Origin: Rhizobiaceae bacterium
GTDB lineage: Bacteria; Pseudomonadota; Alphaproteobacteria; Rhizobiales; Rhizobiaceae
NCBI GenBank assembly: GCA_014238155.1
Contig: JABABQ010000013.1
Location: 1-64,000 of the forward strand
Direction of reading: 5' to 3'
Length of the DNA: 64,000 nucleotides
In this document: positions 16,416 to 33,235 of the stretch, one piece after another
Layout of the letters: every line of letters starts with the position of its first letter
Numbering within the stretch: position 1 is the stretch's first letter
Program-made: the position numbers and the translations under genes
Notes under the pieces: model-generated
Told to the model about the DNA's origin: nothing
What the model saw: only the letters and a program-made list of their open reading frames with translations
The model's database searches: none

Positions 16416-16907
16416 TCACTCAGAATCATAGCTCAAGGGCGCGCGGCTGGACTCATTGGTCCCCTGCAACAGCTTTTGCATGATCATGCTCAGTGTATCA
16501 TATTCTTCGCGGCTGATCGGCGCGGTCAGGCGTTTCTGAGCCTCAATCATCTTGGGCTGAACGGCTTCGACAAACGAGCTGCCTTCCGATGTGATTTTCG
16601 CAAGCTTGGTGCGCTTATCGGTTGTGCTGGGCGGGCGCTCAAGCAGTTTTCTGCGCTCCAGCCGTCGCAGAACATCTGCCACCGTATTGCGGTCGGCACC
16701 AATTTTGCGGGCAATTGACACCTGATCGAGGATGCCGTTTTTGGACAATACCGTAAGCACTGCAAACTGCACTGGCGTCAGATTGAACTCAGCGCATTCT
16801 TCCAGGAACATCGCCACATGGATTTGATGCAGGCGCCGGATCAGATATCCGGGACGGTCAGACAGGTCTGAGAAATCCCGGGGGGTAACAGAAGTTTTGT
16901 CATTCAT
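16416..16907 (-). CDS. MarR-family transcriptional regulator
   Basis: 163 residues with the MarR winged helix-turn-helix: FNLTPVQFAVLTVLSKNG, then DQVSIARKIGADRNTVADVL and the wing around STTDKRTKLAKITSEG. MarR proteins are usually dimeric repressors released by aromatic or other small-molecule ligands. It is divergent from the hydantoinase/F420 operon across a 248-bp spacer with a promoter and operator candidate at 17069-17098, so it is the obvious candidate regulator of that operon. Its 3' end lies 47 nt from the IstA fragment. Confidence 0.9.
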   Translation of the reverse strand: MNDKTSVTPRDFSDLSDRPGYLIRRLHQIHVAMFLEECAEFNLTPVQFAVLTVLSKNGILDQVSIARKIGADRNTVADVLRRLERRKLLERPPSTTDKRTKLAKITSEGSSFVEAVQPKMIEAQKRLTAPISREEYDTLSMIMQKLLQGTNESSRAPLSYDSE

Positions 16908-17068
16908 TTGGTTAACTCTGCGTCAAGACATTAATGGCGAAAATTGCTCGCTGGAAGGAATCCCCTTCGCGATTTAACACTCGCATAATGCTTATATTGT
17001 TGTGGCGCCGTATTGCCAATTGCCGCGCACAGCAAATGTGGAAGAGCAATGCCGGTTGCACATTCGAT

Positions 17069-17098
17069 TTGACTCCCACACAATTGGTAGTACACTCC
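17069..17098 (+). promoter_or_regulatory. Candidate promoter and operator of the hydantoinase/F420 operon
   Basis: TTGACT (17069-17074) and TACACT (17091-17096) are separated by 16 nt, a plausible sigma-70 promoter 60 nt before the hyuA start. The -10 lies inside GGTAGTACACTCC (17086-17098). The reverse complement of this 13-mer matches GGAGTATACGTCC (33223-33235), upstream of the TRAP operon, at 10 of 13 positions. Confidence 0.5.
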
Positions 17099-17155
17099 CT
17101 ATTTCAAACTGGACCGCAAGTTTGTGAGTGATTTCATTACCGAAAGGGCAAATCT

Positions 17156-19222
17156 ATGGGCTGGACTGTTGGTGTAGATGTTGGTGGCACATTTACTGAC
17201 TTTTATGCGGCAAATGATGAAAGCGGCATGGTTCATGTCGGCAAGACATCATCTACGCCATCCAATCCGGCGCAAGCCATTCTTACGGGCCTGACGGCTC
17301 TGTGCAGTCAATATGAGATCTCTGTGGACGATATCGATCGGCTCTCCCATGGCACGACCGTCGGTACCAATGCACTGATTCAGCGTTCTGGCGATGTTGT
17401 GGCCCTGATCACGACAAAAGGGTTTCGCGATCTGCTGGAAATCGGACGCCAGACCCGCCCTCATATGTACGATCTCCAGCGAGATCACCCAGCCCCCCTG
17501 GTGGATCGGGAAAACCGCATCGAGCTTGAAGAGCGCATGGATGCCCAGGGCGAAGTCGTTACCGCACCAAGCCGTGAGGCAATAGAGCAAGCCATCGATC
17601 AAGTGGTCGCTACCGGAGCGACAGCTTGCGCCATTGGCTTTCTGTTTGCCTTCCGCAACCCTGCCCATGAGCAACTGGTTGCTCAGGTGATGCGCGAAAA
17701 GGCACCGCACATTGCGCTTTCCCTCTCAAGCGAGGTTCAGCCGGAATTTCGCGAATATGAGCGTCTGTCAACAACGGTTCTCAATGCCTATCTGCAACCG
17801 ATCATGAGCAACTACCTGCAGACATTGGAAGATGGTGTCCGCGGCCAGGCGAAGAATGCCACTTTGGGGATCAATCAATCGAGCGGTGGATTGATGTCAC
17901 CACAGCGGTCGCGCGAATTGCCGGTGCGCACTGCGCTTTCCGGCCCGGCAGCCGGTGCAGTGGGTGCTGCCCATGTGGCCAGACAGACCAATCGCCGAAA
18001 CATCATCACCTTGGATGTCGGCGGGACAAGTGCAGATGTAGCGCTTATCCAGAATTTCGAAGTCGACATTGCATTTGATCGAGACGTTGCAGGTTTCCCC
18101 ATTCGACTTCCCAGTGTTGATGTTGAAACCGTGGGTGCTGGAGGAGGTTCTATCGCGTGGTTTGACCGGGATGGACTGCTGAAAATGGGACCAACCAGCG
18201 CAGGTGCCGCACCGGGCCCCGCCTGTTATGGTCTGGGTGGTGATCAACCAACCGTCACCGACGCAAATTTGTTGCTGGGGCGCCTTTCGGCGCGCGGTTT
18301 GCTTGATGGTGACATGGGATTGGATGTGAATTTGTCACGAGCAGCTTACCAGCCAATCGCTGATGAACTTGGCTTCTCCATAGAAAGAACAGCACACGGG
18401 GCGCTGGGTGTGATGGTGGCCAACATGGTTCGCACAATCCGCACAATATCCGTTGAGCGGGGACATGATCCGCGGGATTTCGTGTTAATGCCTTTTGGTG
18501 GTGCGGGACCGTTGCACGCCCGAGATGTGGCCGTCAGCCTGGGCATCCGGGAAATGGTTGTGCCAGCCGCCCCCGGCATTGTCTGCGCACAGGGGCTTTT
18601 AGTATCTGATCTGAAGGAAGACTTCGTTGTAAGCCGCCGGTTTGCTCTCGATGATGCAGGCGTGGACATTCTTTGTGGCGCTCTGGAGGAACTGAACGAA
18701 AGGGCCGACAACTGGTTCAGGCAGGAAAATGCGCCTGCTGATGCACGCATGTTGCAGCTGGTCGTCGACGCCCGATATATCGGCCAGAACTTTGAACTTG
18801 CAGTTCCGATTGCCGCTGCACCAACACTGGGTTCTGGCGATGTTGGCAGCGCAGATGAATTGCACGCGATATTCTGCACCACCCACGAAACGGCCTATGG
18901 CTATGCAAGCCCGGATGATGCCGTTGAAATCGTCAATGTTCGACTTTCCGCCAGCGCCCGTCTGTTTAAGGAAAATGACAAAGTCGAAAACAAGCCATCT
19001 TCCATATCCCCGGAACCACGCGACCATCGCCCCGTGTTTTTCGACGCCGGCACAGCGGTCAAAACCGCCATTTATTCCCGCTCAGATCTGCAATCGAGCC
19101 AGGTCATCAACGGACCGGCGATAATTGAACAACTGGATACGACAACGCCGGTTTACCCGGGGGACAGAGCAACAGTTACGGCTCATCATCATCTGATCAT
19201 CAGCATCGAGCAGGGAGCGTAA
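17156..19222 (+). CDS. Hydantoinase/oxoprolinase subunit A
   Basis: 688 residues, the usual length of HyuA/ATP-dependent hydantoinase A subunits. The N-terminus has the Hydant_A_N sugar-kinase-like nucleotide motif (VGVDVGGTFTDFYAAND), then LSHGTTVGTNALIQR. The central LSGPAAGAVGAAHVARQ and ITLDVGGTSADVALI motifs are the second ATP-binding half. With subunit B it should couple ATP hydrolysis to ring opening of a cyclic amide or imide, or to a carboxylation as in acetophenone carboxylase. First gene of the ten-gene operon, preceded by AAAGGG; hyuB starts 2 nt after it. The substrate cannot be read from sequence. Confidence 0.92.
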   Translation: MGWTVGVDVGGTFTDFYAANDESGMVHVGKTSSTPSNPAQAILTGLTALCSQYEISVDDIDRLSHGTTVGTNALIQRSGDVVALITTKGFRDLLEIGRQTRPHMYDLQRDHPAPLVDRENRIELEERMDAQGEVVTAPSREAIEQAIDQVVATGATACAIGFLFAFRNPAHEQLVAQVMREKAPHIALSLSSEVQPEFREYERLSTTVLNAYLQPIMSNYLQTLEDGVRGQAKNATLGINQSSGGLMSPQRSRELPVRTALSGPAAGAVGAAHVARQTNRRNIITLDVGGTSADVALIQNFEVDIAFDRDVAGFPIRLPSVDVETVGAGGGSIAWFDRDGLLKMGPTSAGAAPGPACYGLGGDQPTVTDANLLLGRLSARGLLDGDMGLDVNLSRAAYQPIADELGFSIERTAHGALGVMVANMVRTIRTISVERGHDPRDFVLMPFGGAGPLHARDVAVSLGIREMVVPAAPGIVCAQGLLVSDLKEDFVVSRRFALDDAGVDILCGALEELNERADNWFRQENAPADARMLQLVVDARYIGQNFELAVPIAAAPTLGSGDVGSADELHAIFCTTHETAYGYASPDDAVEIVNVRLSASARLFKENDKVENKPSSISPEPRDHRPVFFDAGTAVKTAIYSRSDLQSSQVINGPAIIEQLDTTTPVYPGDRATVTAHHHLIISIEQGA

Positions 19223-19224
19223 TC

Positions 19225-20913
19225 ATGGGCACCAAACTCGACCCGATCAGCCTTGAAATCATTGCCAACAGCCTTCGCTCGATAGCGGACGAGTGTTTTG
19301 TGGCGCTGATGCGTTCGTCCTATTCCACCAATATCAAGGAACGCAAAGACCATTCAATTGCGATTGTAGATTGCGAAGGCAAGCTGGTTGTTCAGGCGGC
19401 GCTCACATTGCCGATCCACATCGCCTCAATGGGCGGTCTGATGCGCTGTGTGCTCGACAAGTTTGAGGGAGATATCCACGAAGGTGACATCTTCATTGCC
19501 AACGATCCACACACTGCCGGTGGCACCCACCTGCCCGACATCAACTATGCCATGCCGATCTTCAATGACGGCGCGCTCGTCGCATTTATCTGCAACATCG
19601 CCCATCACGCCGATATCGGAGGCATGGTTCCCGGATCCATGGCCGGTGGCATGTCGGAAATCTACCAGGAAGGCCTGCGCATTCCGGTGGTAAAACTATT
19701 CCGACAGGGCGAATTGCAAGCTGACATCATGGACATTCTGTTGCTGAATGTGCGCGTTCCTGAAGAGCGAAAAGGTGATCACAATGCACAAATAGCCTCC
19801 TGTAAACTCGGCGCGCGACGGTTCCGCGAAGTCATTGAGGTACACGGGCTTGATGATGTGTTGGAAGCATTTGACGAGATCATGTCGCGCACAGCTGTTC
19901 GCATGAAATCAGCCATAGCCGATATTCCAGACGGCACATATGAATTCAGTGACTTTATGGATGGTGATGGCATGGGAACAACGGATATTCCCATTTGCCT
20001 GAGCCTTACGGTACAGGGTGACAATATCCGGCTCGATTTCACGGGCACAAGCAAACAGGTGCTGGGCAATATCAACACAACACTGAACGCGGTACAGGCC
20101 AGCGCCTGCTACGCATTGATCGGCGCGTTGGATTCCAACATGCCGAGCAACCAAGGTGTATTGGACGTGGTGGAAATTATCTGCGAGCCGGGAACCCTGT
20201 TGAGTTCAGTATTCCCGGCGCCGGTGGCGGCCCGCGCCCATTCCTGTCAGCGGGTTATCGACGTTGTGTTTGGCGCCCTGTCAAAGGCCATTCCCGATCG
20301 GGTTATTGCGGCGGCAAACGGGGCAAATACGACCGCTGTTTTTTCGGGCGTCGACCCGCGCACCGGCAAGCCCTACCTCTATTTTGAAACGCTGGCGGGC
20401 GGCATGGGAGCCCGTGCAACCAAAGACGGCAAAGACGGGGTTCAGGTGGGCATCACCAACACTTCCAACCTGCCGGTGGAATCGATTGAACAGGAATACC
20501 CGATTAGGGTCGTGGAATATGGGTTCATTCAGGATTCCGGCGGTGCTGGCACCTATCGGGGTGGCATGGGCCTGCGGCGTGTTCTCACACCGGTGGATCA
20601 TGAATGTGTGTTCAACGGTGCAGGCGAACGCTTTCGATATCGGCCATGGGGGTTATTTGGTGGGCAGGACGGCGGCTCCGGGCGCTTCCTCATTCAAGAC
20701 CAGAATGGTGAACGCCGCCTGGATGACAAACCCGGCGAAGTGCGTGTGAATCGTGATGACGTCATCATTGTCGAGACTCCCGGAGCCGGTGGGTACGGTC
20801 CCCCCGATCAACGGGCTGCAGAATTGATCGAACATGACCGTCGCAGCAAGAAATTTTCGGACTCATTTATTGAACAACACTACGGTACGGGCAACCGTGC
20901 AACGGAAGGATAA
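19225..20913 (+). CDS. Hydantoinase/oxoprolinase subunit B
   Basis: 562 residues, typical for HyuB. It opens with LDPISLEIIANSLRSIADEC, then NDPHTAGGTHLPDINYAMPI and AHHADIGGMVPGSMAG, conserved Hydantoinase_B segments containing probable metal ligands. The C-terminal region holds GGAGTYRGGMGLRR and the closing ETPGAGGYGPP. It forms the catalytic complex with the preceding subunit. Partner genes (CoA ligase, oxidoreductases) suggest a catabolic role for a heterocycle or lactam rather than glutathione-cycle 5-oxoprolinase, which is normally a single fused protein or unlinked. Confidence 0.92.
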   Translation: MGTKLDPISLEIIANSLRSIADECFVALMRSSYSTNIKERKDHSIAIVDCEGKLVVQAALTLPIHIASMGGLMRCVLDKFEGDIHEGDIFIANDPHTAGGTHLPDINYAMPIFNDGALVAFICNIAHHADIGGMVPGSMAGGMSEIYQEGLRIPVVKLFRQGELQADIMDILLLNVRVPEERKGDHNAQIASCKLGARRFREVIEVHGLDDVLEAFDEIMSRTAVRMKSAIADIPDGTYEFSDFMDGDGMGTTDIPICLSLTVQGDNIRLDFTGTSKQVLGNINTTLNAVQASACYALIGALDSNMPSNQGVLDVVEIICEPGTLLSSVFPAPVAARAHSCQRVIDVVFGALSKAIPDRVIAAANGANTTAVFSGVDPRTGKPYLYFETLAGGMGARATKDGKDGVQVGITNTSNLPVESIEQEYPIRVVEYGFIQDSGGAGTYRGGMGLRRVLTPVDHECVFNGAGERFRYRPWGLFGGQDGGSGRFLIQDQNGERRLDDKPGEVRVNRDDVIIVETPGAGGYGPPDQRAAELIEHDRRSKKFSDSFIEQHYGTGNRATEG

Positions 20914-20918
20914 CCGAC

Positions 20919-21938
20919 ATGCGTGTTTATTCCATGGTCCGGCCTCACAGGTTGGAAGAGATGCCAGACGCGATCGCCCGCGCAGAGCGGCTGGGTTATG
21001 ATGGCACCACATTGTTGGAGTTGACGGTTCCGCCGACATTGTCTTGCGTTGCCGGAGCTATGGTCAGTGAAAAAGTGAAGCTGTTGACAGGAGTTTTCGT
21101 GGCATTCCCGCGCTCGCCGATGGCGACTGCCTATGATGCCTGGTCAATTCATTCGTTGTCCAAAGGCCGGTTTCAGCTTGGCATCGGCAGCCAGATCAAA
21201 GCGCATTCAACCCGGCGTTTCGGAATGGAGCATCTGCCACCGGTCAAGCGGATGCGTGAATATATGGAAGCGCTGCACGCGATTTGGGATTGCTGGCAAA
21301 ATGGTACCCGGCTGAATTATCAGGGTGAGTATTACAAACACGATTTGATGATCCCCTATTACAATCCCGGGCCGCTGGAATATGGTCGCCCACCGATCTA
21401 CCTTGCTGCCATCAACAAGCTGATGTGCCAATTGTGCGGGAAAATGGCTGATGGGCATTTGCCGGGAGATCCCATTACCAACAAATGGCATGAAGAGGTT
21501 ATGCTTCCCAACCTGGAGATTGGGGCTAAAAAGACCGGACGTTCATTGAACGATATCGACCTTGGCAGCTATGGGTTCATCGGTTGTGCGACCACCGATG
21601 AAGGTCTCGAACGCATGCGTGCCGGACTGAAGGAACGCGTGGCACTTTATGCATCCACACCTGAATACAAGCAGATGCTCGACATGCATGGCTGGGACGT
21701 TAATCTGACCGACTTCATCGAGATGGCCCGGGCCCAAAAATGGAAGCAGATGGCAGAGCTCGTATCAGATGAAATGCTCGAGGCCTATGCTGTTGTTGAG
21801 AAACCGGCGGATCTTCCAGCCGCTCTGAAAAAACGGTTCGGCAGCACCGTAAACCGCATTCAGATTGATGAAACATGGTTTGATGGCCTAACCGACGACG
21901 ATACGGAAAAACTTGTCGCTGAGATAAAGAAAATTTGA
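20919..21938 (+). CDS. LLM-class flavin/F420-dependent oxidoreductase (first)
   Basis: 339 residues with the bacterial luciferase-like (beta/alpha)8 fold: IARAERLGYDGTTLLELTVP, TGVFVAFPRSPMATAYDAWS and LSKGRFQLGIGSQIKAHSTR. This last pattern is common in F420-dependent LLM enzymes, which transfer hydride from F420H2 to or from small organics; FMN-dependent members look similar. The gene sits 5 nt after hyuB and upstream of F420 recycling and synthesis genes, so F420 is the likely cofactor. The central insertion around PITNKWHEEVMLPNLEIGAK and the C-terminal tail resemble the MSMEG_2256-type subgroup. The substrate is unknown. Confidence 0.87.
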   Translation: MRVYSMVRPHRLEEMPDAIARAERLGYDGTTLLELTVPPTLSCVAGAMVSEKVKLLTGVFVAFPRSPMATAYDAWSIHSLSKGRFQLGIGSQIKAHSTRRFGMEHLPPVKRMREYMEALHAIWDCWQNGTRLNYQGEYYKHDLMIPYYNPGPLEYGRPPIYLAAINKLMCQLCGKMADGHLPGDPITNKWHEEVMLPNLEIGAKKTGRSLNDIDLGSYGFIGCATTDEGLERMRAGLKERVALYASTPEYKQMLDMHGWDVNLTDFIEMARAQKWKQMAELVSDEMLEAYAVVEKPADLPAALKKRFGSTVNRIQIDETWFDGLTDDDTEKLVAEIKKI

Positions 21939-21940
21939 GC

Positions 21941-23443
21941 ATGGAGATGGGTTCAGTCACCAATGTTGACACTGCCTCCCGCGATTACGCCGCTGAGGAA
22001 TGGGCGCGCCTGTGCGCCAGAGATCCTCACTCACTTGCGGTTGCTGAATCCGATCGCGAAGTCACTGTTGGCGAATTGATATCGCTTGCCCGCAAACGCG
22101 CAGGCCAGTTCCTTGCACAAGGTGTGACGCCCGGCAGCAGAGTCATCGTCGCCAGACCCAATGTGATTGAATTTGTAGTCGATTATTTGGCGATCCGCCT
22201 CTGTGGTGCTGTACTGGTCAACCTGCCCTGGTCTGCCGGCACCAGTATTACCGAACTGGCCGAAATTTTGGATGCAGATTGTGTGGTTCTGACCGAACAT
22301 CTGGTTGGTGATAACCCGCTGTTCGATCAACTGGGAGACAGACGTTTTCGCCCCCACGAAGAGGCACCGATGGGGCCATCCGCTCCACCGCCGCGCCGGT
22401 CGGACGAGCTGGCCTGGTTGGCCTGTACGTCAGGGACAACCGGCACCCCGAAAGCAGCGATGCATACCTTTGCCGCGCTTGAGCGACAGACTGAAGTGTT
22501 CGCCGAGCATTTTGGATTGACTGCCAAAGACCCGATTCTGGTGACATCACCAGTTGGTCATGCGGTTGCTCTGCTGTTTGGTGTGCGCATGTCATTAATG
22601 TTGGATTCCGCGATGGTGTTGGTGTCACGCTGGAAAATTGACACGGCGGTGGATCTTATTGAACGCTATGGATGTGTATTCACAGTCGCCCCAACGCCAT
22701 TCCTGGTGGACTTTGTCACCTATGCGGAAACTAACGGCAGCGACCGGGTAAAGTCTTTACGGTTTTTTCCCTCAGCCGGTGCACCGGTGCCACGCTCGCT
22801 TGTACAACGCGGCCTGGACGTCATGCCCGACTGCCAGATCTGGTCCTATTTTGGAACATCAGAAGCTGGCGCGGTTACCGCTGTACCCCTCAACGCCACT
22901 CTCGACCAGCGTATGAACACAGACGGGGTAGCGATGCCTGGCACGACAACGCGCGTGGTTGATGGTGAGCTGGAATTGCATTGTCCATCACAGATGATGA
23001 CAGGCTACTGGAGCGGTGACCCCGATGGCCGTCTCAGCGAAGATGGATGGTATCAAACCGGAGATGCTGCAGAGCAACGCCCGGACGGCTATATCAAAAT
23101 GATCGGCCGTGCCCGTGACATCATCCTGCGTGGTGGCGAAAATATTTCACCTCTGGAAATTGAAAATGTGTTGCTTGGACAGGCAGAAGTTATTGATGTC
23201 GCGATCGTCGGCTATCCCGATGATCGACTGGGGTCCAGGCTGGCCGCCGTCGTGGTTTGCCGAACATCCGTCACGCTTGCCGCGTTGAGGCAGCATTGCG
23301 AAAGTGTCGGGCTGGACAAGGCAAAATGGCCGGAATTCATGATTGAGATTGAAAAAATACCGCTTTCAGCAATCGGCAAGGTCAAGCGCGGCGACCTGGA
23401 AGAACGCGTCCTCGCTGAAATAAGCGCACGGGAGAAGACGTGA
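21941..23443 (+). CDS. AMP-forming acyl-CoA ligase
   Basis: 500 residues of the ANL superfamily. The phosphate loop is ACTSGTTGTPKAAMHTF (about residue 160), followed by SYFGTSEAGAV, the YQTGDAAEQRPDGYIKMIGR hinge and the catalytic-lysine end AIGKVKRGDL. It would activate a carboxylic acid to its CoA thioester. Related proteins include cyclohexanecarboxylate- and fatty-acid-CoA ligases. The ATG at 21941 follows the preceding stop by 2 nt; ATG 21947 is an alternative. In this operon it probably activates the substrate or the acid released by ring opening. Confidence 0.92.
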   Translation: MEMGSVTNVDTASRDYAAEEWARLCARDPHSLAVAESDREVTVGELISLARKRAGQFLAQGVTPGSRVIVARPNVIEFVVDYLAIRLCGAVLVNLPWSAGTSITELAEILDADCVVLTEHLVGDNPLFDQLGDRRFRPHEEAPMGPSAPPPRRSDELAWLACTSGTTGTPKAAMHTFAALERQTEVFAEHFGLTAKDPILVTSPVGHAVALLFGVRMSLMLDSAMVLVSRWKIDTAVDLIERYGCVFTVAPTPFLVDFVTYAETNGSDRVKSLRFFPSAGAPVPRSLVQRGLDVMPDCQIWSYFGTSEAGAVTAVPLNATLDQRMNTDGVAMPGTTTRVVDGELELHCPSQMMTGYWSGDPDGRLSEDGWYQTGDAAEQRPDGYIKMIGRARDIILRGGENISPLEIENVLLGQAEVIDVAIVGYPDDRLGSRLAAVVVCRTSVTLAALRQHCESVGLDKAKWPEFMIEIEKIPLSAIGKVKRGDLEERVLAEISAREKT

Positions 23444-24375
23444 TGAGCAACGTCCAGATAGGATTTCACATCGATGGTGATGTCTGGGAACCAAAACAAA
23501 TCAAACAGGTCGAGGACCACGGGTTTGATATTCTGACCACCGGCGAACACATTATCTTTTTTCGCCCCATTCTCGATACAATAACGGTACTGGCCTATGC
23601 GGCGGCAGCGACGGAGCGGATTAAATTGCTGCCGTCGACGATCATCATGCCGCTGCGCCACCCAACAATGCTGGCTAAGGAATTGACGTCAATCGACATT
23701 CTTTCCAAAGGCAGGTTGATCGCCTCAGTAGGCATCGGCGGAGACTATCCAAGAGAGTTTGACGCCCTGGGTGTTTCCATGAAAGAGCGCGGCATACGGG
23801 CCAATGAAGGCATCCAGATCATGCGCAAGTTCTGGTCTGGAGAGCGCTTTAGTTTTGATGGCAAAATTTTCAAATTCGAAGATATGGACATGCTGCCTCC
23901 ACCTTATCAAAAAGGTGGTCCACCGCTTTGGGTTTGCGGACGCAGCGATCCGGCGATGAGACGCGCCGCCCGGATGGGCGATGGCTGGCAGCCCTATATG
24001 TATACGGCCGAACAGCTAGGAGAATCCATTACCAAGGTCCATGATTTTGCCGACGAGGCAGGACGCATCCTGCCCGACGATTTTGCCTTCACCAGTTTCG
24101 TCTATATTTCCCAACATGATGATGTTCAGGAAGCCCGCAACCGGGCGATCGAACAACTCTCCTATCGCTTCAACATGCCGTTTGAAAAGATTGTCGACAA
24201 ATATTGCGCCTATGGCCCTGCCGACCGGATCATTGAGAACCTTGCCGAATATGTGCAGCACGGGGCCAACCATTTGATTGTCGCCCTGGTAATGCCCGAA
24301 GAAGAGCGCATGGAATATGTGGCACGATTTGCCGAAGAGATTTTGCCTGCCCTGCAGAAAATGCAGACGGTTTGA
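23443..24375 (+). CDS. LLM-class flavin/F420-dependent oxidoreductase (second)
   Basis: 310 residues, a second luciferase-like enzyme distinct from the first: GFDILTTGEHIIFFRPILDT, LLPSTIIMPLRHPTMLAKEL and LSKGRLIASVGIGGDYPREF. The motif PPLWVCGRSDPAMRRAARMG is usual in this superfamily. F420 use is inferred from the operon. Its start codon overlaps the ligase stop (TGATG). Two different LLM enzymes in one operon suggest two hydride-transfer steps or a reductase/dehydrogenase pair acting on free and CoA-bound intermediates. Confidence 0.88.
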   Translation: MSNVQIGFHIDGDVWEPKQIKQVEDHGFDILTTGEHIIFFRPILDTITVLAYAAAATERIKLLPSTIIMPLRHPTMLAKELTSIDILSKGRLIASVGIGGDYPREFDALGVSMKERGIRANEGIQIMRKFWSGERFSFDGKIFKFEDMDMLPPPYQKGGPPLWVCGRSDPAMRRAARMGDGWQPYMYTAEQLGESITKVHDFADEAGRILPDDFAFTSFVYISQHDDVQEARNRAIEQLSYRFNMPFEKIVDKYCAYGPADRIIENLAEYVQHGANHLIVALVMPEEERMEYVARFAEEILPALQKMQTV

Positions 24376-24387
24376 AGGTGTCTCGTT

Positions 24388-25490: not shown

Positions 25491-26267
25491 ATGTCGAAGT
25501 CACTAACTCTGCAAGCGCTGGAAGGCATCCCGATAATTGCCCCGGGGGATGATCTGGCGACCATTATTGTAACCGCAATAGCAGCGAATGGACTGCAGCT
25601 GCGTGACAGGGACATTCTGGTGTTAGCGCAAAAGATCGTCTCCAAGGCGCACGGCCTTTTCGTTGATTTAAAAGACATTACCCCGGGAACGGAAGCCCTG
25701 AAACTGGCCGGTCAGATCGAAAAGGACCCGCGTTTCGTCGAACTCGTATTGTCACAAAGCAAGTCGGTCATTCGCCAGGTTCCGGGACTGCTGATCACCG
25801 AACACAAATCCGGCTGGATCATGGCCAATGCCGGCATAGACGCATCAAATGTGGACGCTGATGATGATGAAATCGTATTGCTCCTCCCGCACAATCCGGA
25901 TGAAATCTGCCACACCCTTCGTGATGAATTGCAAAAACGTCTGGGTGTGCAGGCTGGCCTGCTGATAAGCGATAGTTTCGGGCGACCGTGGCGCCATGGG
26001 ACCTCCGGAATAGCCATCGGCGCCGCCGGATTGCCGAGCCTGTGGGACCTGCGTGGAGAGCCGGACCTGTTTGGGCAGGAATTGCGGGTGAGCTTGCAGG
26101 GCGTCGGCGACGAACTTGCAGCGGCGGCTTCCCTGCTGCAGGGACAGGCTGCGGAAGGTCTTCCCATTGTCCTCATTCGGGGTTTGAAAATTGGCGGTGA
26201 TACCCCGCCCCCCAATCGTCCTGCGGCCGATCTCATTCGTGAAAAAGAACGGGATTTGTTTCGATGA
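25491..26267 (+). CDS. cofE: Coenzyme F420-0:L-glutamate ligase (CofE)
   Basis: 258 residues, the length of stand-alone CofE. Family features: IPIIAPGDDLATII, RDILVLAQKIVSKAHG, LSQSKSVIRQVPGLLITEHK, NAGIDASNV, and SDSFGRPWRHGTSGIAIGAA. It adds gamma-linked glutamates to F420-0 using GTP. Unlike mycobacterial FbiB it has no C-terminal FMN reductase domain, so reduction of dehydro-F420-0, if needed, is not encoded here. The start directly abuts the npdG stop (TAAATG), and cofD overlaps its end by 4 nt. Confidence 0.94.
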   Translation: MSKSLTLQALEGIPIIAPGDDLATIIVTAIAANGLQLRDRDILVLAQKIVSKAHGLFVDLKDITPGTEALKLAGQIEKDPRFVELVLSQSKSVIRQVPGLLITEHKSGWIMANAGIDASNVDADDDEIVLLLPHNPDEICHTLRDELQKRLGVQAGLLISDSFGRPWRHGTSGIAIGAAGLPSLWDLRGEPDLFGQELRVSLQGVGDELAAAASLLQGQAAEGLPIVLIRGLKIGGDTPPPNRPAADLIREKERDLFR

Positions 26268-27226
26268 GTTCGGGAAAAATCATTGCCCTTTCTGGTGGCG
26301 TCGGTGGTGCCAAACTGGTCCTTGGTCTGTCGCATGTGCTGCCCGATGACCGCTTGATGGTTGTGACCAATACGGGGGACGATTTTGATCATTTTGGCCT
26401 GCGCATCTGCCCTGACACGGACACCGTAATTTACACGCTTGCCGACCTGGCAGACAAAGCAAAGGGCTGGGGCAGAGCCAATGAAAGCTGGACATTCATG
26501 GAGACCACCGCCTCACTGGGAGGAGAGGACTGGTTCAATCTTGGCGACGGTGACCTGGCTCTCCATGTGATGCGAACCCAGGCATTGGCAGGGGGACAAT
26601 CACTGAGCGAAGTAACGGCCAGCGTATCGAAGGCCTGGAAAATTAGCGTTCAGATCGTTCCCATGTGCGATCAGGCAGTTGCCACGATTGTTAACACCGA
26701 AACTGGCCCACTTGCGTTCCAACACTATTTTGTCCGTGACCAATGTCGCCCTGTGGCGACCGGATTTAGTTTCGACGGTATTGATCATGCTATAGCCAAT
26801 CCGATCGCGGTAGACGCTTTTGGGCGGGCACCAGACGCGATCATTCTGACCCCGTCAAATCCCTATGTCAGCATCGACCCAATTCTGAAAACCCCGGGAA
26901 TGCGAACGGCAATCGAAGCCAGTGGTGCTCCTGTAATCGCTGTATCACCGATCGTCGGGGGCGCTGCGATAAAGGGGCCAGCAGCAAAAATGATGTCTGA
27001 ACTGGGCGTGCCGGCCACTGCTCTGGAGGTTGCACGGCACTATCGCGGCTTGGTCGATGCGATGGTCATTGACAAGGTCGATGGCCATTTGGCTCCGGCG
27101 ATTCAGCAGCTGGGCATGGATGTCCGTGTGGTGCCCACCGTGATGAGAAATCTGGATGACAAAATTGCGCTGGCGAAAGATGTATTGGCGCTGGTCAAAC
27201 ACCTAAAATCTGCGAGACGATCATGA
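26264..27226 (+). CDS. cofD: 2-phospholactate-type transferase (CofD)
   Basis: 320 residues. The N-terminus is ALSGGVGGAKLVLGLSHVLP followed by VVTNTGDDFDHFGL, then WFNLGDGDLALHVMRTQAL, TPSNPYVSIDPIL and AVSPIVGGAAIKGPAAKM, all CofD hallmarks. It transfers the phospholactyl-type moiety from the guanylyl intermediate made by CofC to Fo, forming F420-0 or its dehydro or 3-phosphoglyceryl form. The start overlaps cofE and the end overlaps cofC (both ATGA), so the cofactor genes are translationally coupled. Confidence 0.95.
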   Translation: MSSGKIIALSGGVGGAKLVLGLSHVLPDDRLMVVTNTGDDFDHFGLRICPDTDTVIYTLADLADKAKGWGRANESWTFMETTASLGGEDWFNLGDGDLALHVMRTQALAGGQSLSEVTASVSKAWKISVQIVPMCDQAVATIVNTETGPLAFQHYFVRDQCRPVATGFSFDGIDHAIANPIAVDAFGRAPDAIILTPSNPYVSIDPILKTPGMRTAIEASGAPVIAVSPIVGGAAIKGPAAKMMSELGVPATALEVARHYRGLVDAMVIDKVDGHLAPAIQQLGMDVRVVPTVMRNLDDKIALAKDVLALVKHLKSARRS

Positions 27227-27885
27227 CAGACATCGTGATCCCTATAAAAAATCTGGTTGACGCCAAGAGCCGGCTTTCCGACATCCTTAATCAGCCACAG
27301 CGCTCGGGGCTTGTGATGGCCATGCTGGAAGATGTTCTCGGTCGTGTCACTGAACTGGATCACGGGCGGGTTTGGGTCGTGTCCAGCGATGAGCACGCCC
27401 TGGATATGGCCCGTCTGTTTGGCGCCATACCCCTCCAGGAAATTCGGTCGATTGGCTATAATGAAGCCATCATCACCTGGCTGCGTGCATTGCCGGACGA
27501 CGGAAATATTGCCGTCATTCCTGGCGACATTCCATTGGCTCGCGAAGCCGAACTGGCAAGTCTTGTGTCACCTCAGTTGGCTTGTGCTCCACACATCAGA
27601 ATTGCACCGGCCCATGATTTTGAGGGCACGAATGGCTTGTTCCTCTCCTCAAAAAGGCTCATCCGCCCTGCTTTTGGACCCGGCAGCTTTGCTCGGCATT
27701 TCAAATTGGCGCGTGCCGTCAACATTGAACCAGAAGTATTGCACGCACTCCGAATGGCCCAAGACGTAGACACTGACGACGATCTGCGTTCACTGGTTGA
27801 AAACAACCCGGCGGGAGCAACGGGTGAGTTTCTGCGCAGTTTGAAACTTTCACCCGATCAAACCGATAGTGAGGATGTGGCATGA
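27223..27885 (+). CDS. cofC: 2-phospholactate-type guanylyltransferase (CofC)
   Basis: 220 residues of the CofC/FbiD nucleotidyltransferase family. It starts with IVIPIKNLVDAKSRLSDILN, the nucleotide-binding loop, then VIPGDIPLAREAELASLV with the metal-binding aspartate and FEGTNGLFLS and FGPGSFARHFKLA further on. It activates a three-carbon phospho-acid with GTP. Whether the acid is phospholactate, phosphoenolpyruvate or 3-phosphoglycerate (known in one betaproteobacterial lineage) cannot be decided by eye. Overlaps both neighbours by 4 nt. Confidence 0.93.
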   Translation: MTDIVIPIKNLVDAKSRLSDILNQPQRSGLVMAMLEDVLGRVTELDHGRVWVVSSDEHALDMARLFGAIPLQEIRSIGYNEAIITWLRALPDDGNIAVIPGDIPLAREAELASLVSPQLACAPHIRIAPAHDFEGTNGLFLSSKRLIRPAFGPGSFARHFKLARAVNIEPEVLHALRMAQDVDTDDDLRSLVENNPAGATGEFLRSLKLSPDQTDSEDVA

Positions 27886-30221
27886 CTTTACCGGACGAAC
27901 GGCAGGCATTGGCTCTGCTGGAGCGCCCCTTCGATGAATTGTTAGCCGAAGCGGCCGCGCTTCGGGACGCTGGCCATGGTCGGTTGGTCTCCTATTCAAA
28001 AAAAGTATTTATCCCGCTCACTCAATTGTGCCGTGACGTCTGTCATTATTGCACGTTCGCCAAAGCACCCAAGAGTCTGGAAGCCGCATTCCTGATCCCT
28101 GAACAGGTATTGTCGATCGCCGTTGAGGGGCAAAAAGCCGGATGCAAGGAAGCCCTGTTCACGCTGGGTGATAAACCTGAACTGCGCTATGCGGCTGCGC
28201 GCGATGCGCTTGCTGATTTGGGCTATGCCACGACACTTGAATATCTGGGTGCCATGGCAAATATGGTTTTTGAGAGAACTGGCCTGATGCCACATCTCAA
28301 CCCCGGCATCATGTCATCAGCAGAAATTTCCAACCTGCGCAAAACCTCTGTCTCAATGGGGATCATGCTTGAAAGCACATCGCAACGGCTGATGCAGCGC
28401 GGCGGATGTCACTTTGGCTCTCCCGACAAAGAACCGTCAATCAGGCTCGAAACGATTGCTGAGGCCGGGCGTCAGAACGTCCCCTTTACCAGCGGTATAT
28501 TGATTGGCATCGCAGAGACACGCCAGGAGCGTATTGAAAGCCTGCTGGCACTGCGCGATCTACATCAGCAATACGGGCATATTCAGGAAATCATTGTCCA
28601 GAATTTCCGCGCAAAGCCCGGCACAAAAATGGAAAATGCCGTTGAACCTGACCTCAGTGATCTGCAGTGGACCATCGCCGTCGCGCGTTTGATTTTTGGC
28701 CCTCATATGACGGTTCAGGCCCCGCCAAACCTGTCCGCTGGCAACGCGGCAGAGTTGATTTCTTCGGGGTTGAACGATTGGGGTGGTGTTTCGCCAGTGA
28801 CCCCCGATCATGTAAACCCCGAAGCTCCATGGCCACATTTGGCCGATCTTGCCACAGACACGGCGGCTTCCGGAAAAATACTGGTCGAGCGCCTGGCCAT
28901 CCATCCAACTTATGTTCAGCGCTGCGATGACTGGCTTGATCCGACCTTCAAACACTCTGTACTGAAGGCCGCGAATGCATCTGGACTGGCCAGATCCAAT
29001 GACTGGTCGCCGGGTGGTGCATCTCTAAAAATCCCCCGGTTGCTGGCTACGCCGGGACTCATTGGTGACAGTGAATTGGATCGCGTGATCAGCAGAGCTG
29101 CTGCCGGTGCTGATCTCAGCGAATCTGAGATTGAGCGCCTGCTGAAAGCGCACGATGGTGAAGTCCTGCAAATTGCGAAAGCCGCAGATGAGCTTCGCCA
29201 CAAGGTGAACGGAGACACGGTCAGTTACGTCGTCACCCGCAACATCAATTACACCAATATTTGCTACTTCAAATGCAAGTTCTGCGCCTTTTCAAAAGGC
29301 AAGATGAGTGAGAACCTGCGCGGGCGCCCCTATAATCTTGATTTGGAAGAGATCGTGGCGCGCGCTCAAAATGCCTGGGACAGGGGGGCGGTAGAAGTCT
29401 GTCTTCAGGGCGGCATTCATCCCGATTATACCGGGCAGACCTATCTCGATATTTTGACAGCGATCAAGGCTCAACTTCCCGATATGCACGTCCATGCATT
29501 CTCACCACTGGAAATTCATCAAGGTGCTGAAACACTGGGGCTTTCGATCGAGGATTTTCTTCAAAGCTTGATTGATGCCGGGCTTGGCAGTCTGCCGGGC
29601 ACTGCAGCGGAAATTCTGGACGATGAAGTCCGTGATATTCTGTGCCCTGATAAAATCAACACCCAACAATGGTTTGATGTGGTGAATACGGCCCATCAAT
29701 TGGGGTTGAAAACAACGGCAACGATCATGTTCGGTCACATCGACCAGCCGTTGAACTGGGCCAGGCATCTTTGGCGACTGCGCCAACAGCAGCAAAAGAC
29801 TGGTGGTTTCACCGAACTGGTACCGCTGCCCTTTGTCCACATGGAAGCACCGATTTACCTGAAGGGACTGTCAAGAAAGGGCCCTACGTGGCGTGAAACC
29901 ATCCTCATTCACGCTGTCTCCCGGTTGGCTCTGCATCCCCATATTCCCAATATTCAGGCATCCTGGGTCAAGCTTGGCATGGCTGGAATTGAGGCTTGTC
30001 TGAAGGCTGGTGTGAATGACATTGGTGGCACTTTGATGGATGAAAGCATTACCAAAGCAGCCGGTTCAGAGCATGGTCAGCAGATGACCCCGGAAGCCAT
30101 GGAAACCTTGCTTGCGAAGATGGGACGTCCATCACGCCAGCGTACCACGCTTTATGCCGACGCAAAACTGGACCGTACCACCGCGTCATTTGGGGTATCG
30201 CCGGAATTGCTTACAGCTTAA
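27882..30221 (+). CDS. fbiC: Fused Fo synthase (CofG-CofH; FbiC)
   Basis: 779 residues with two radical-SAM halves, as in actinobacterial FbiC. The N-terminal CofG half has its iron-sulphur ligands at C50, C54 and C57 (LTQLCRDVCHYCTFAKAP). The CofH half has C461, C465 and C468 (NICYFKCKFCAFSKGKM). Together they make the deazaflavin Fo from tyrosine and 5-amino-6-ribitylaminouracil. Downstream of CofH: QGGIHPDYTGQTYLDIL, VHAFSPLEI and LPGTAAEILDDEVRD. It ends the operon and converges on the TRAP transporter with only 12 nt between the stop codons. Confidence 0.96.
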   Translation: MTLPDERQALALLERPFDELLAEAAALRDAGHGRLVSYSKKVFIPLTQLCRDVCHYCTFAKAPKSLEAAFLIPEQVLSIAVEGQKAGCKEALFTLGDKPELRYAAARDALADLGYATTLEYLGAMANMVFERTGLMPHLNPGIMSSAEISNLRKTSVSMGIMLESTSQRLMQRGGCHFGSPDKEPSIRLETIAEAGRQNVPFTSGILIGIAETRQERIESLLALRDLHQQYGHIQEIIVQNFRAKPGTKMENAVEPDLSDLQWTIAVARLIFGPHMTVQAPPNLSAGNAAELISSGLNDWGGVSPVTPDHVNPEAPWPHLADLATDTAASGKILVERLAIHPTYVQRCDDWLDPTFKHSVLKAANASGLARSNDWSPGGASLKIPRLLATPGLIGDSELDRVISRAAAGADLSESEIERLLKAHDGEVLQIAKAADELRHKVNGDTVSYVVTRNINYTNICYFKCKFCAFSKGKMSENLRGRPYNLDLEEIVARAQNAWDRGAVEVCLQGGIHPDYTGQTYLDILTAIKAQLPDMHVHAFSPLEIHQGAETLGLSIEDFLQSLIDAGLGSLPGTAAEILDDEVRDILCPDKINTQQWFDVVNTAHQLGLKTTATIMFGHIDQPLNWARHLWRLRQQQQKTGGFTELVPLPFVHMEAPIYLKGLSRKGPTWRETILIHAVSRLALHPHIPNIQASWVKLGMAGIEACLKAGVNDIGGTLMDESITKAAGSEHGQQMTPEAMETLLAKMGRPSRQRTTLYADAKLDRTTASFGVSPELLTA

Positions 30222-30233
30222 ACCTGAACGACT

Positions 30234-31547
30234 CTAGCCGACCAGATTGGGTAACCAGGTCGCGATCTGCGGGAAGATGATAATCATCGCGATGCCCGCC
30301 AGAAACAGCAAAACGAACGGCCATGTGGCTTTGTAGACATCGCTGATCGTCATGTTCGGTACAACGGCCTTGAACGCAAACAGCGTATATCCAAATGGCG
30401 GCGTGATCGCTCCAAGTGTGATGTTGATCAAAAACAGCAGCCAGAACCATACGGGATCAAATCCGAGACTGTTCACTACCGGTTGGTAGATCGGAATGGT
30501 CAACAGGATGACGGCGATCGTATCGATGAACATGCATAAAATGAACGGTACAGCGAGCATGATCAGCAACATCACAATCGGGCCGTAGCCAAGATTGGCG
30601 ACCAGTTCAACCAACTCACTTGTTGCCCCGGTAAACGCCAGGAGCTGCGTAAACATCTTCGACATCGCCATGATGGCGAGAATCATCGCCGAAACGGTGA
30701 TCGATGCCATAATGGAATCCCAAATCATCTGCCAGCTGAGATTTCGGTAAATCGCAGCGGTTATCAGCGCGCCAACGACCCCGGTTGCAGCCGATTCAGA
30801 CGGCGTGGCAATGCCCAGCATGATAAAACCCATCACCGAAAAAATGACAATGACGAACGGCAAAGTCCGTATCAGTGCCATGACCAGATCACCTATCGTG
30901 ACGTCGTCTCTCTCTCCGGTCACATTGGCCGGTGCAAGGGAAGAATCCATGGCGATGCGAATGAACACGTAGACAAGGAATATACCGCCCAGAAGCAGAC
31001 CCGGAATAACACCGGCAATCAGCAGCTTGGCGATGGAGACATCAGCAATAGAACCGACAATGATGGCCAGAAGACTGGGCGGAATGATCGGGGCGAGGCT
31101 TGCTCCACCAACGATCAGGCCTGCGGCGATATCACGGTTATAACCGCGTTCCTGCATGCCCGGCATAATGGCCCTTCCGAGCATTGCTGCAACTGCCATC
31201 GCGACCCCGCTCAACGCCCCAAATACCGCGGAGAGCACCACGACCAGCACGTATTGACGTCCCCTGATGCGTCCCACCAGCTTGTCAATTGAATCAAACA
31301 ACACGTCCATTGTGCCGGATCGAAACAGCAGCTCTCCCATCAATATGAAAAGCGGGATCGACGCCAGCGAGGTTGTTGATGCTGTATCGAGAACTGAATT
31401 TGCGAACATCGGGAAGCCGGCCGGGCCAATAATGACGTAAACACCCACAAGTATGGCGAACAGAAATGCCAGGAAAATCGGTGCGCCCGACAGAAACAAC
31501 GCGAACAGGATTGCGATGCCCAGCAGCAGCGTGGTGTACCACTCCAT
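30234..31547 (-). CDS. TRAP transporter large permease (DctM)
   Basis: 437 residues, the standard DctM length, with about twelve membrane helices. Typical stretches are LFLSGAPIFLAFLFAILVGV, SIPLFILMGELLFRSGTMD, GGASLAPIIPPSLLAIIVGS and LGAITPPFGYTLFAFKAVVP. It is the main channel of a sodium-driven importer of organic acids. The ATG at 31547 overlaps the small-permease stop (TGATG); a longer in-frame extension reads through the small permease and is not real. The operon faces the F420 operon, so the imported acid is likely its substrate. Confidence 0.94.
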   Translation of the reverse strand: MEWYTTLLLGIAILFALFLSGAPIFLAFLFAILVGVYVIIGPAGFPMFANSVLDTASTTSLASIPLFILMGELLFRSGTMDVLFDSIDKLVGRIRGRQYVLVVVLSAVFGALSGVAMAVAAMLGRAIMPGMQERGYNRDIAAGLIVGGASLAPIIPPSLLAIIVGSIADVSIAKLLIAGVIPGLLLGGIFLVYVFIRIAMDSSLAPANVTGERDDVTIGDLVMALIRTLPFVIVIFSVMGFIMLGIATPSESAATGVVGALITAAIYRNLSWQMIWDSIMASITVSAMILAIMAMSKMFTQLLAFTGATSELVELVANLGYGPIVMLLIMLAVPFILCMFIDTIAVILLTIPIYQPVVNSLGFDPVWFWLLFLINITLGAITPPFGYTLFAFKAVVPNMTISDVYKATWPFVLLFLAGIAMIIIFPQIATWLPNLVG

Positions 31548-32068
31548 CAGTTGCCACCGTCCGAAAAGCCGGTCGAACTGACACGGTTGGAAGGGGCCGC
31601 ATAGCGCAGCATGTAGAGCGAACTGAGTGCTAGTCCAAGAGTAATGAAACTGGAAATCCACCACTGCGGCACCGGGATGATGGCCAGCGTTTCGATGTTC
31701 TTGGTGTATTGCCGAATGTTTTCCTGAAGGCTGATATAAGCAGCAAATGCCAGGCTTAAAAAACCTATCAGACTGACCATGACATGCATCCAGCCGGCAA
31801 TTTTCTTCGGCATAACATCGACCAGAATGGTAACGGCAACATGCCCCCTGTCCTTTGTTACTTTGGGAAAGGCGAGGAAAACTGAGGCACACAGGGCATA
31901 GGTGACAAAATCACTGACCCAGGCGGTGGGCGAGTTGAAAAAATACCGGGTTACAACTTCATAGACATAGCTGACGACGATCATCGCAAGTCCAACCCCT
32001 GCAAAGACTGCAGCCAAGTGGGTCAGCCAGTCCAATACCGAATTGAGCTTGGCCAGTGTGGATTTCAT
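31547..32068 (-). CDS. TRAP transporter small permease (DctQ)
   Basis: 173 residues from the ATG at 32068 (GGTGAG upstream); ATGs at 32083, 32089 and 32104 are alternatives. Four membrane helices with the DctQ pattern: VVSYVYEVVTRYFFNSPTAW near residue 35, then a loop VTKDRGHVAVTILVDVMPKK. It forms the membrane unit with DctM. It lies about 90 nt after the binding-protein gene and is translationally coupled to the large permease. Confidence 0.9.
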   Translation of the reverse strand: MKSTLAKLNSVLDWLTHLAAVFAGVGLAMIVVSYVYEVVTRYFFNSPTAWVSDFVTYALCASVFLAFPKVTKDRGHVAVTILVDVMPKKIAGWMHVMVSLIGFLSLAFAAYISLQENIRQYTKNIETLAIIPVPQWWISSFITLGLALSSLYMLRYAAPSNRVSSTGFSDGGN

Positions 32069-32157
32069 CGTATCACTCACCATCCCCATCACCACGTATC
32101 TCAATTAGCAAAACCTGCCGCCAATCAAGGCGGCAAGTTTCATATCGTAGGCCAGTT

Positions 32158-33132
32158 TTACATTCCTTTGGAAGCGACAAAGTCGCGGAATGCTTCTCCA
32201 ACCTTGCCAGATTTTTCAACCGCAACTTCCATGGCGCGATCGGCGAACAGTTTGTTGGCTTCTTCCAGCGAATAGCCAATGCTTGTTGTCTTCGCTCCAG
32301 CAGCCATCATCGCTGCATTTTCGGAATCCAGCAGATTGTTGAAAATGCCAACCGTGTCCTGCTCGAGTTTGTGTCCGGCTTCAAGCATGGCCTTTTGAGT
32401 GTCGGCATCAAGCCCGTTCCACTTGTCCAGGTTCATCATGATCAGGTAAGACACTGTGCCAAAAGCGGGTTCGGCAAGATAGGGTGTGACTTCGTGGAAT
32501 TTGAAGCCAACGGCGCCAACGCTTGGCCAGACCAGGCCATCAATAACCCCCTTTTCAGCCGCTGAATAAAGTTCACCAAATGGGATTACCACTGCGGTGC
32601 CACCCAATGAGCCAACTATTTTATTGTAGGAAGGCAAAGCGCGAATTTTCATTCCGTTGAGTTTAGTGCCCGCATCCATTGGCTTTTTCAGGAAGAACCG
32701 AAATCCGGTTGTCGCGGTTGGAATGGAAAGAACCTTGAGGTTTTGTGTCTCTTGATAGTGTTTATCGACCCAGGCCCAGACACCGCTCGAGCGGCGCTTT
32801 TCGATATCGCCATCGACAGCATCAATCGCTGCACCAACACCTGTGGTTCCCGTGTGATAGAGGCCGTGCGTATAGATCAGATCAAATACGCCGGAGGCAA
32901 CCGGTTGGAGTTGTTTGCCACCGGGCACCACTTCCGGGCCGCTGGGTTTGATGGTGACTTTACCACCAGTCATCTCGTTGACGAGCTTGTTGTAGCCATA
33001 GGCCATATTGGCCGTGCCCGAATGGTTGCCACCCCAGGCGGTCAACATTTTCAGATCGGCTGCGAAAGACGTGGCTGTAGAGAGTACGACACCGACGGCA
33101 GTCGCGGACAGAATTCTTAGAAATTTGTTCAT
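32158..33132 (-). CDS. TRAP transporter periplasmic binding protein (DctP/TAXI-unrelated)
   Basis: 324 residues with a Sec signal peptide (MNKFLRILSATAVGVVLSTA, cleavage after SFA). The mature DctP fold shows GTANMAYGYNKLVNEMTGGK, KMRALPSYNKIVGSLGGTAV-type ligand region (here GMKIRALPSYNKIVGSLGG) with the conserved arginine that binds a carboxylate, and EKGVIDGLVWPSVGAVGFKF. The ligand is therefore probably an organic acid. The start at 33132 follows a strong GGAGGAAA. First gene of the operon, with a candidate operator at 33223-33235. Confidence 0.92.
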   Translation of the reverse strand: MNKFLRILSATAVGVVLSTATSFAADLKMLTAWGGNHSGTANMAYGYNKLVNEMTGGKVTIKPSGPEVVPGGKQLQPVASGVFDLIYTHGLYHTGTTGVGAAIDAVDGDIEKRRSSGVWAWVDKHYQETQNLKVLSIPTATTGFRFFLKKPMDAGTKLNGMKIRALPSYNKIVGSLGGTAVVIPFGELYSAAEKGVIDGLVWPSVGAVGFKFHEVTPYLAEPAFGTVSYLIMMNLDKWNGLDADTQKAMLEAGHKLEQDTVGIFNNLLDSENAAMMAAGAKTTSIGYSLEEANKLFADRAMEVAVEKSGKVGEAFRDFVASKGM

Positions 33133-33222
33133 GGTTTCCTCCGGTTGAACATCCAATCGAGCCTGTTGGGCCAGGTTCTGTGTTCTTGCATGCGTCTTGG
33201 AGCGCACTTTGTATAAAAATAT

Positions 33223-33235
33223 GGAGTATACGTCC
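33223..33235 (-). promoter_or_regulatory. Candidate operator/promoter of the TRAP operon
   Basis: GGAGTATACGTCC, with TATACT on the - strand as a plausible -10 hexamer, about 90 nt before the binding-protein start. It matches the reverse complement of the hyuA promoter element (17086-17098) at 10 of 13 positions, and the adjoining CCTATTT is also shared. Part of the likeness could come from the -10 box itself. Confidence 0.4.

Follow-up and report, generated by a model that had tools for sequence, protein, structure and literature searches.

A block of genes at about 16420 to 33260 in the 64-kb stretch of DNA that we analysed (the window, from contig JABABQ010000013.1 of a Rhizobiaceae bacterium) probably represents a dedicated supply of the cofactor F420, placed in one regulon with the catabolic enzymes that use it and mobile as a unit. 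At the level of sequence, this reading is based on gene content, gene order, conservation, boundaries, single-copy F420 genes and a common promoter motif. The core of the block is an operon of 11 co-directional genes (17156-30221, + strand), separated by -4 to +12 nt according to the open reading frame (ORF) list and profile searches. Their order is hyuA, hyuB, LLM1, a coenzyme A (CoA) ligase, LLM2, a thioesterase, npdG, cofE, cofD, cofC and cofGH, with a divergent marR on one side and a convergent TRAP importer on the other:

16416-16907, - strand: marR-family regulator (PF01047, 48 bits)
17156-19222, + strand: hyuA, ATP-binding subunit of an ATP-dependent cyclic-amide hydrolase (profiles and motifs)
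19225-20913, + strand: hyuB, metal-site subunit (profile and structure-chain alignment)
20919-21938, + strand: LLM1, putative Mer-like F420-dependent hydride transferase (TIGR03617, 338.4 bits, cut-off 278.15)
21935-23443, + strand: CoA ligase, adenylate-forming acyl/aryl-CoA ligase (profile)
23440-24375, + strand: LLM2, luciferase-like (TIGR03619, 186 bits, cut-off 166.9)
24388-24813, + strand: hotdog thioesterase (profile)
24810-25490, + strand: npdG, NADPH:F420 oxidoreductase (TIGR01915, 203.2 bits, cut-off 149.8)
25491-26267, + strand: cofE, F420-0 glutamate ligase, 258 aa (265 bits, cut-off 181)
26264-27226, + strand: cofD (291 bits, cut-off 257), the sole cofD match in the genome
27223-27885, + strand: cofC (145.5 bits, cut-off 105)
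27882-30221, + strand: cofGH fusion, FO synthase (fbiC; 1145 bits, cut-off 1018)
30234-31547, - strand: dctM, TRAP large permease (profile match)
31547-32104, - strand: dctQ, TRAP small permease (by place, size and conservation only)
32158 to about 33135, - strand: dctP, TRAP solute-binding protein (profile; an alternative upstream GTG at 33207 is also open)

All the F420 synthesis proteins, NpdG, LLM1 and LLM2 pass curated NCBIfam cut-offs. A sequence-only reading of the window had described a self-contained F420-dependent catabolic island of ten genes. That interpretation is supported, with a qualification on the placing of users beside synthesis that is given below; the gap range, the divergent MarR regulator and, by ORFs and family profiles, the gene content and coordinates were right as well. 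The count of ten was one gene short. The convergent TRAP importer is recognised by family for DctM and DctP, while the third part, the dctQ ORF, has no NCBIfam match.

The F420 synthesis set is complete in the operon, since cofGH, cofC, cofD and cofE are all above their cut-offs, and it seems to be the only one that the organism has. Profile searches of the window's own genome (a draft of 4.8 Mb in 77 contigs, 97.75% complete) gave one cofD match and one CofH match above cut-off, and thus no second complete F420 set of the kind the sequence-only reading had proposed to look for. The same genome has five LLM genes, two of them in the block. Occurrence among relatives is patchy: cofD was found in 4 of 15 genomes of the genus, three of which have the block (the window's and, as equated by their cofD coordinates, G601 with locus L117 and G610 with locus L118; the fourth is G602), and above cut-off in 22 of 199 genomes of a family sample and 58 of 385 of a class sample. 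Because most hosts have no other F420 source, it makes sense that the cofactor is encoded on the transcript of its users.

The 18 block-bearing genomes described below have one cofD match each, 16 within the block and two elsewhere, and these two are exactly the genomes whose blocks (L127 and L129) are without cofE and cofD. In the L129 genome the other cofD belongs to a second complete operon, cofG-cofH-cofD-cofC-cofE-npdG (L197, G595:C50), the parts of which are 29-49% identical to those of the window; that of the L127 genome, at the edge of a contig, is fragmentary and scores under the family cut-off. In these two genomes, cofED is missing only where cofD lies elsewhere, as would be expected if FO alone does not suffice for the users, which would need F420 itself, and if the cof genes of the block become redundant once the host has another F420 source. 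The pair thus looks like a natural complementation test. Two variants of the pathway were considered and set aside. Where Mycetohabitans CofC has S162, phmmer alignments with 7p97 and 6bwg place a Gly in the CofC of the window; Ser or Thr would be expected in a 3PG-F420 producer, so that this variant is not supported. The CofE of the window, at 258 aa, is the ligase domain alone, lacking the C-terminal nitroreductase-like domain of the mycobacterial FbiB type. The PF04075 profile for other F420 users matched 0 of the 18 genomes, with controls that were equally silent.

The block recurs in both alpha- and gammaproteobacterial hosts. We scanned 84,980 species genomes for LLM1 by means of short conserved LLM1 peptides, a procedure that blocks whose LLM1 lacks both peptides would escape. 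Among the best 80 of 82 relatives, 17 loci are at 72-97% identity, after which there is a gap to 43% or less in the other 63 loci, and the block is absent from all of these. The gene order is the same in all 17 further genomes as far as their contigs extend (for L120 and L130, the rest of the block was taken from another contig of the respective genome), and is therefore far from chance; the sequence-only reading had regarded a unique order as evidence against itself. All 18 blocks combine llm1 with npdG and cofC; cofGH accompanies it in 17 of them and cofD in 16 (L117, L118, L120, L124 and L130 each pooled from two pieces). Four blocks (L126, L128, L130 and L131) have no llm2, so LLM2 is dispensable. 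As named in their records, the alphaproteobacterial carriers belong to Hyphomicrobiales, Rhizobiaceae, Rhodobacteraceae, Paracoccaceae, Octadecabacter, Hoeflea and Tepidamorphus, with one unplaced; another is a metagenome-assembled genome (MAG) labelled Rhodospirillaceae, and four are gammaproteobacterial (a Bugula symbiont, Acidiferrobacteraceae, Granulosicoccaceae and one unplaced). For some of them a marine origin is suggested by the name (Bugula symbiont, Hoeflea poritis, Octadecabacter). The accessory ends vary more: the importer adjoins marR in L124 and L133, no importer lies within the 21-kb locus L121, and no marR was seen in the L127 locus. Among the flank matches listed, genes beside the block are common to L126, L128 and L131, and two ORFs, one in L122 and one in L059, resemble ORFs of the window at about 35%, so that no general neighbour gene hints at the substrate.

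The operon and the importer carry related promoter elements, in the window as follows:

17069-17098, + strand: hyuA promoter and operator, TTGACT, 16 nt, TACACT; the palindrome GTAGTACACTCC at 17087-17098 overlaps the -10
33218-33246, - strand: dctP promoter, TCGACA, 17 nt, CATATT; a palindrome-like operator, GGACGTATACTCC (33235-33223), lies in the spacer

In eight aligned blocks one conserved element precedes hyuA, a -35 TTGACT followed by a -10 inside the palindrome GTAGTAYACTAC. It is the sole match at one mismatch or fewer in the window (0.03 expected). The operator was taken from the alignment, as automated inverted repeats upstream of hyuA were inconsistent between loci. All 17 usable loci have the core AGTAYACT within 450 bp upstream of hyuA, where shuffles would give 0.30, L120 being excluded because its contig begins 73 nt before hyuA; a narrower pattern (TTGAC plus the core within 260 bp) is found in 14 of the 17, missing L119, L123 and L124. 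Upstream of dctP, a GTATAC core is present at -23 to -41 in seven of seven usable loci, a count that leaves out L126, L128 and L131, which end inside the gene, and L127, which has about 50 nt of upstream sequence and no site there. A stricter core is present in three of the seven (0.18 expected), the window not among them. In L129 the dctP site has the perfect form and occupies the entire spacer that separates TTGACA from CATAAT. A promoter scan lists both promoters, with 13 sites in total against 12.1 in shuffles, and is by itself no evidence.

Searched in the 18 whole genomes, GNAGTAYACTMCNTAWW gave 29 matches and its reversed control none: 19 are at a distance of 38-237 nt from a hyuA start (17 genomes), nine at 24-55 nt from a dctP start (seven genomes) and one elsewhere. 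The window's own dctP site falls outside this strict motif. Because four of the sites are palindromic and were matched on both strands, the 29 matches amount to 25 distinct sites. The block of the Bugula symbiont has no adjacent importer; an extra match on a separate contig of that genome stands just upstream of orthologues of dctP, dctQ and dctM (85, 65 and 86% identical). Place and conservation suggest that MarR would be the protein that binds the site. The match elsewhere is in genome G588 (L270, G588:C84:1-9500, site 1187-1203), about 155 bp upstream of an importer of the betaine/proline/choline family of ATP-binding cassette (ABC) systems (TIGR01186, 373 bits, cut-off 327). After the importer come the three subunits of a molybdenum hydroxylase (xanthine dehydrogenase/4-hydroxybenzoyl-CoA reductase type), none of which reaches an equivalog cut-off, and the series ends beside marR. 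This third copy of the operator is a possible extension of the regulon and a hint at the substrate.

These elements can be assembled into a tentative pathway of ring reduction followed by ring opening. The MarR repressor would keep the hyuA and dctP promoters closed through the same palindrome until its ligand appears. The TRAP importer would then take up a ring-bearing carboxylic acid, which the CoA ligase would prime as a CoA thioester; NpdG would use NADPH as hydride donor to reduce F420, the synthesis genes of which would be co-transcribed with its users, and LLM1 would transfer the hydride from F420 to the substrate ring. HyuAB would open the resulting ring amide at the expense of ATP, and the thioesterase would release the intermediate. 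The direction of the LLM1 reaction and the order of the steps are our suggestions, and the substrate that we favour would be an N-heterocyclic carboxylate of the lactam, ring-amide or pyridone type. The combination of a low-potential hydride transfer and an amide hydrolysis has parallels in reductive pyrimidine breakdown, in 6-hydroxynicotinate reduction and in the ligase and hydantoinase-like pair of anaerobic indoleacetate breakdown. The same proteins could also work in reverse: the LLM enzymes may be F420-reducing dehydrogenases, like Adf and Fgd, with NpdG returning the hydride to NADP in an oxidative pathway where F420 is the acceptor. We regard this as rather improbable, while noting that it would use the same genes.

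The boundaries of the block point to mobility. The window, L117 and L118 come from one genus, and their blastn homology runs from 16420 to 33257-33261, with an abrupt stop on both sides. The comparison used the pairs L117/L202 and L118/L201, and covered flanks of 5.5 and 3.8 kb for L118 and of only 0.3 and 2.3 kb for L117. Both edges are marked by debris:

15614-15904, + strand: decayed transposase start (DUF772-type) at the left edge, with repeat copies (DUF772 below cut-off, E 0.007; translation by eye)
33314-33565, - strand: probable transposase fragment at the right edge (by eye; translation without Pfam match)

The first 290 bp of the left debris occur in many copies in the window genome and in the genus (21 in G610), and in G602 relatives of the two fragments, left and right, lie less than 1 kb apart. 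Beyond these decayed pieces, profile searches found no integrase or transposase among the genes of the block. No clean empty site was shown, as the two flanks of the window are on two separate, non-adjacent contigs in G609. Just beyond the block, at 33812-34870 and 37435-39675 and outside the stretch common to L117 and L118, the window encodes a PAS-linked adenylate/guanylate cyclase and a hybrid histidine kinase.

A gammaproteobacterial MAG provides another kind of evidence. Its 17,872-nt contig JAAZYQ010000040.1 (L124 and L199) has identical 55-nt ends and closes to about 17.8 kb with block and importer; in the portion with listed ORFs there is no other sizeable gene and no replication or integration gene. 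Such ends could come from a free circle, from a tandem repeat or from the assembly. Plasmids were also considered. The 391-kb contig with the G610 copy cannot be called one, since the plasmid gene repC (PF03428) was not found in the G610 genome or in the window genome, and was found in 1 of 10 genomes searched. This LLM1 was not seen in PLSDB either, where the 22 records at E 1e-30 are all below 60% identity (best listed 40%).

The trees give a less uniform picture. In the unrooted tree of the cof genes, a branch with 92% support splits the gammaproteobacterial copies into two pairs. Pairwise distances of catabolic and cof proteins correlate, for example between hyuA and cofGH (0.82) and between the ligase and cofD (0.81), though with only 0.49 for LLM1 and cofC, which suggests that these genes largely travel together; dctM follows them less closely. 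The unrooted tree of the catabolic genes groups the four gammaproteobacterial copies with 61% support, a result that vertical descent could also give, so that the trees back transfer less than clearly. One could therefore argue for an ancestral block with many losses, all the more since all carriers found are Proteobacteria. We consider this unlikely: within one genus the block has the same ends and unlike flanks and is present, judging by cofD, in only 3 of 15 genomes, the left edge holds transposase debris, and the 92% branch separates the two gammaproteobacterial pairs. The proposal of the sequence-only reading that the trait could move as a block thus finds support in the sharp common ends, the patchy occurrence, the cof tree and the one contig that closes into a circle.

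The identity of HyuAB bears on the chemistry. HyuA has the ATP motifs of the ASKHA fold (DVGGTFTD at 8, DVGGT at 287, GAAPGP at 350), and D42, H102, D105 and H127 of HyuB align with the metal ligands of caprolactamase, an Asp-His-Asp-His site; these are the features of the ATP-dependent lactamase/hydantoinase family. The caprolactamase CapAB equivalog cut-off is not reached (544.2 and 290.7 of 1000 bits), nor are those of acetophenone carboxylase (289.9 of 1500, 190.9 of 1250 and 129.4 of 1500). If HyuAB were instead a carboxylase of the acetone/acetophenone type, the block would degrade a ketone and not a cyclic amide; HyuA and HyuB do match carboxylase models and chains, and a CoA ligase and a thioesterase would fit a carboxylated ketone. 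We rejected this option as quite unlikely, because hydantoinase/lactamase chains score far better (508 and 398 against 280 and 220 bits for HyuA, 277 and 226 against 119 and 73 for HyuB) and the further carboxylase subunit is absent among the 11 operon genes.

The LLM enzymes raise the question of the cofactor, which could be flavin mononucleotide (FMN). LLM1 looks F420-dependent by profile and fold: in the structural comparison, the top 13 rows are all F420 enzymes, the thirteenth tied with the first FMN enzyme. LLM2 is above the TIGR03619 cut-off and yet has luciferase ranked first, so that its cofactor, F420 or FMN, is ambiguous. The sequence-only reading had named FMN-only enzymes as a result that would contradict it; LLM1 argues against this and LLM2 leaves it ambiguous. 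That both are FMN monooxygenases and the F420 genes functionally unlinked neighbours is very improbable, since, although luciferase ranks first for LLM2 and LLM folds are common to F420 and FMN enzymes, LLM1 is above an F420 subfamily cut-off, npdG and the cof genes accompany llm1 so regularly, and cofED is lost only where cofD lies elsewhere (two genomes).

The G588 operator copy invites a more specific proposal. Because it precedes a betaine-family importer and a molybdenum hydroxylase, it suggests a betaine precursor and the hydroxylation of an N-heteroaromatic ring, and the block might then be a reductive route for pyridine betaines, e.g., homarine (N-methylpicolinate), an abundant metabolite of ocean particles. 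The molybdenum hydroxylase would convert the betaine to an N-methylpyridone carboxylate, F420H2 would reduce the ring, as CoA thioester, through LLM1, and the N-methylhydantoinase-like HyuAB would open the N-methyl lactam; the TRAP importer would take up the pyridone acid itself. With one genome and family-level annotation behind it, this is a long shot, and later work has reportedly dealt with bacterial homarine genes, which would lower it further. If true, it would imply that proteobacterial F420 in general serves the reduction of N-heterocycles before ring-amide hydrolysis.

The block can be compared with the other proteobacterial F420 loci, of which 58 were retrieved from the class and family samples (60 retrieved, two being the block; further loci exist). 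An LLM gene lies near the cof genes in 37 of the 58 and hyuA in six, figures given without a background comparison, and none of the 58 matches the ligase or the thioesterase of the block at E 1e-8. The placing of cofactor synthesis beside its users, which the sequence-only reading had singled out, is thus present in the block but not peculiar to it: since LLM genes are common near cof genes, the arrangement was already known in kind, and what is new is an unusually complete, regulated variant. That Proteobacteria have F420 genes, and that these are transferred horizontally, was already known (PMC8498797). The clusters of Paracoccus, Oligotropha and Paraburkholderia described there have the same cof/fbi genes with npdG (Fno) and are likewise patchy and horizontally moved, whereas the available portion of that article describes no catabolic operon, operator or importer with them. 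CapAB caprolactamase, N-methylhydantoinase and 5-oxoprolinase (PMC8453981) share with the block the HyuA ATP motifs and HyuB metal ligands; unlike CapAB, the HyuAB of the block is partnered with F420 genes and stays under the caprolactamase cut-off. Picrate degradation in Rhodococcus and Nocardioides likewise employs an F420H2-dependent LLM hydride transferase and an NADPH:F420 reductase in catabolism, but in actinobacterial hosts and on a nitroaromatic substrate. To our knowledge, F420 synthesis, HyuAB and CoA ligase are not part of the picrate cluster.

Plasmid-borne F420 islands (Leisingera, Agrobacterium rubi, Sinorhizobium meliloti pSymA, Variovorax) are further relatives. In 39 records CofD is at most 50.5% identical, and an annotated LLM gene is near cof in 8 of the 10 regions examined, which come from 10 of these records (two Leisingera regions being near duplicates). 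As in the block, catabolic or ring-amide enzymes adjoin several of them; they differ in gene order, in cofG and cofH being separate in some, and in having other hydrolases (dihydropyrimidinase, 5-oxoprolinase parts). Leisingera plasmids (L203, L240) carry an F420 operon with a TIGR03842 LLM beside a dihydropyrimidinase, a Zn-hydrolase, an aminotransferase and an NAD(P) transhydrogenase, possibly an F420-dependent reductive pathway of the pyrimidine type. In A. rubi, parts of a 5-oxoprolinase and a gamma-aminobutyrate transaminase accompany the cof genes and the F420 LLM. Judging from annotations, both islands would fit the logic of reduction followed by amide hydrolysis; others, e.g., those of Croceicoccus, Aromatoleum and Novosphingobium, do not. 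On pSymA (L206), a symbiosis plasmid typed conjugative, F420 genes accompany a branched-chain ABC importer, a CoA transferase, an LLM and a transhydrogenase, and the S. meliloti fbi operon is linked to nodule competitiveness in PMC8407117. Another type of F420-LLM island occurs in MAGs of Pseudomonadales and Gammaproteobacteria (L149, L179), where three LLM1-like genes in a row (24-40% identity) stand behind a complete npdG-cofEDC-cofGH set.

Archaea and actinobacteria are the groups with which F420 is chiefly associated, as a lineage-wide cofactor. Full-text searches, with preprints and most subscription journals outside their scope, returned no paper in which the operon, the operator or the importer is described. 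The accessible part of PMC8498797 calls the alphaproteobacterial role of F420 minor or niche-specific, treats its proteobacterial use as an open question and states that by 2021 no F420-dependent enzyme had been tested in bacteria outside Actinobacteria. In the block, the whole cofactor supply appears to be tied to one substrate: it is in the same operon as its users, shares the promoter motif of the importer, is present in one copy per genome, and is bounded and probably movable. If so, a host could gain or lose its entire F420 supply together with the use of one carbon compound, and a defined promoter motif together with a named host strain (Hoeflea poritis E7-10, L125) makes that substrate directly findable.

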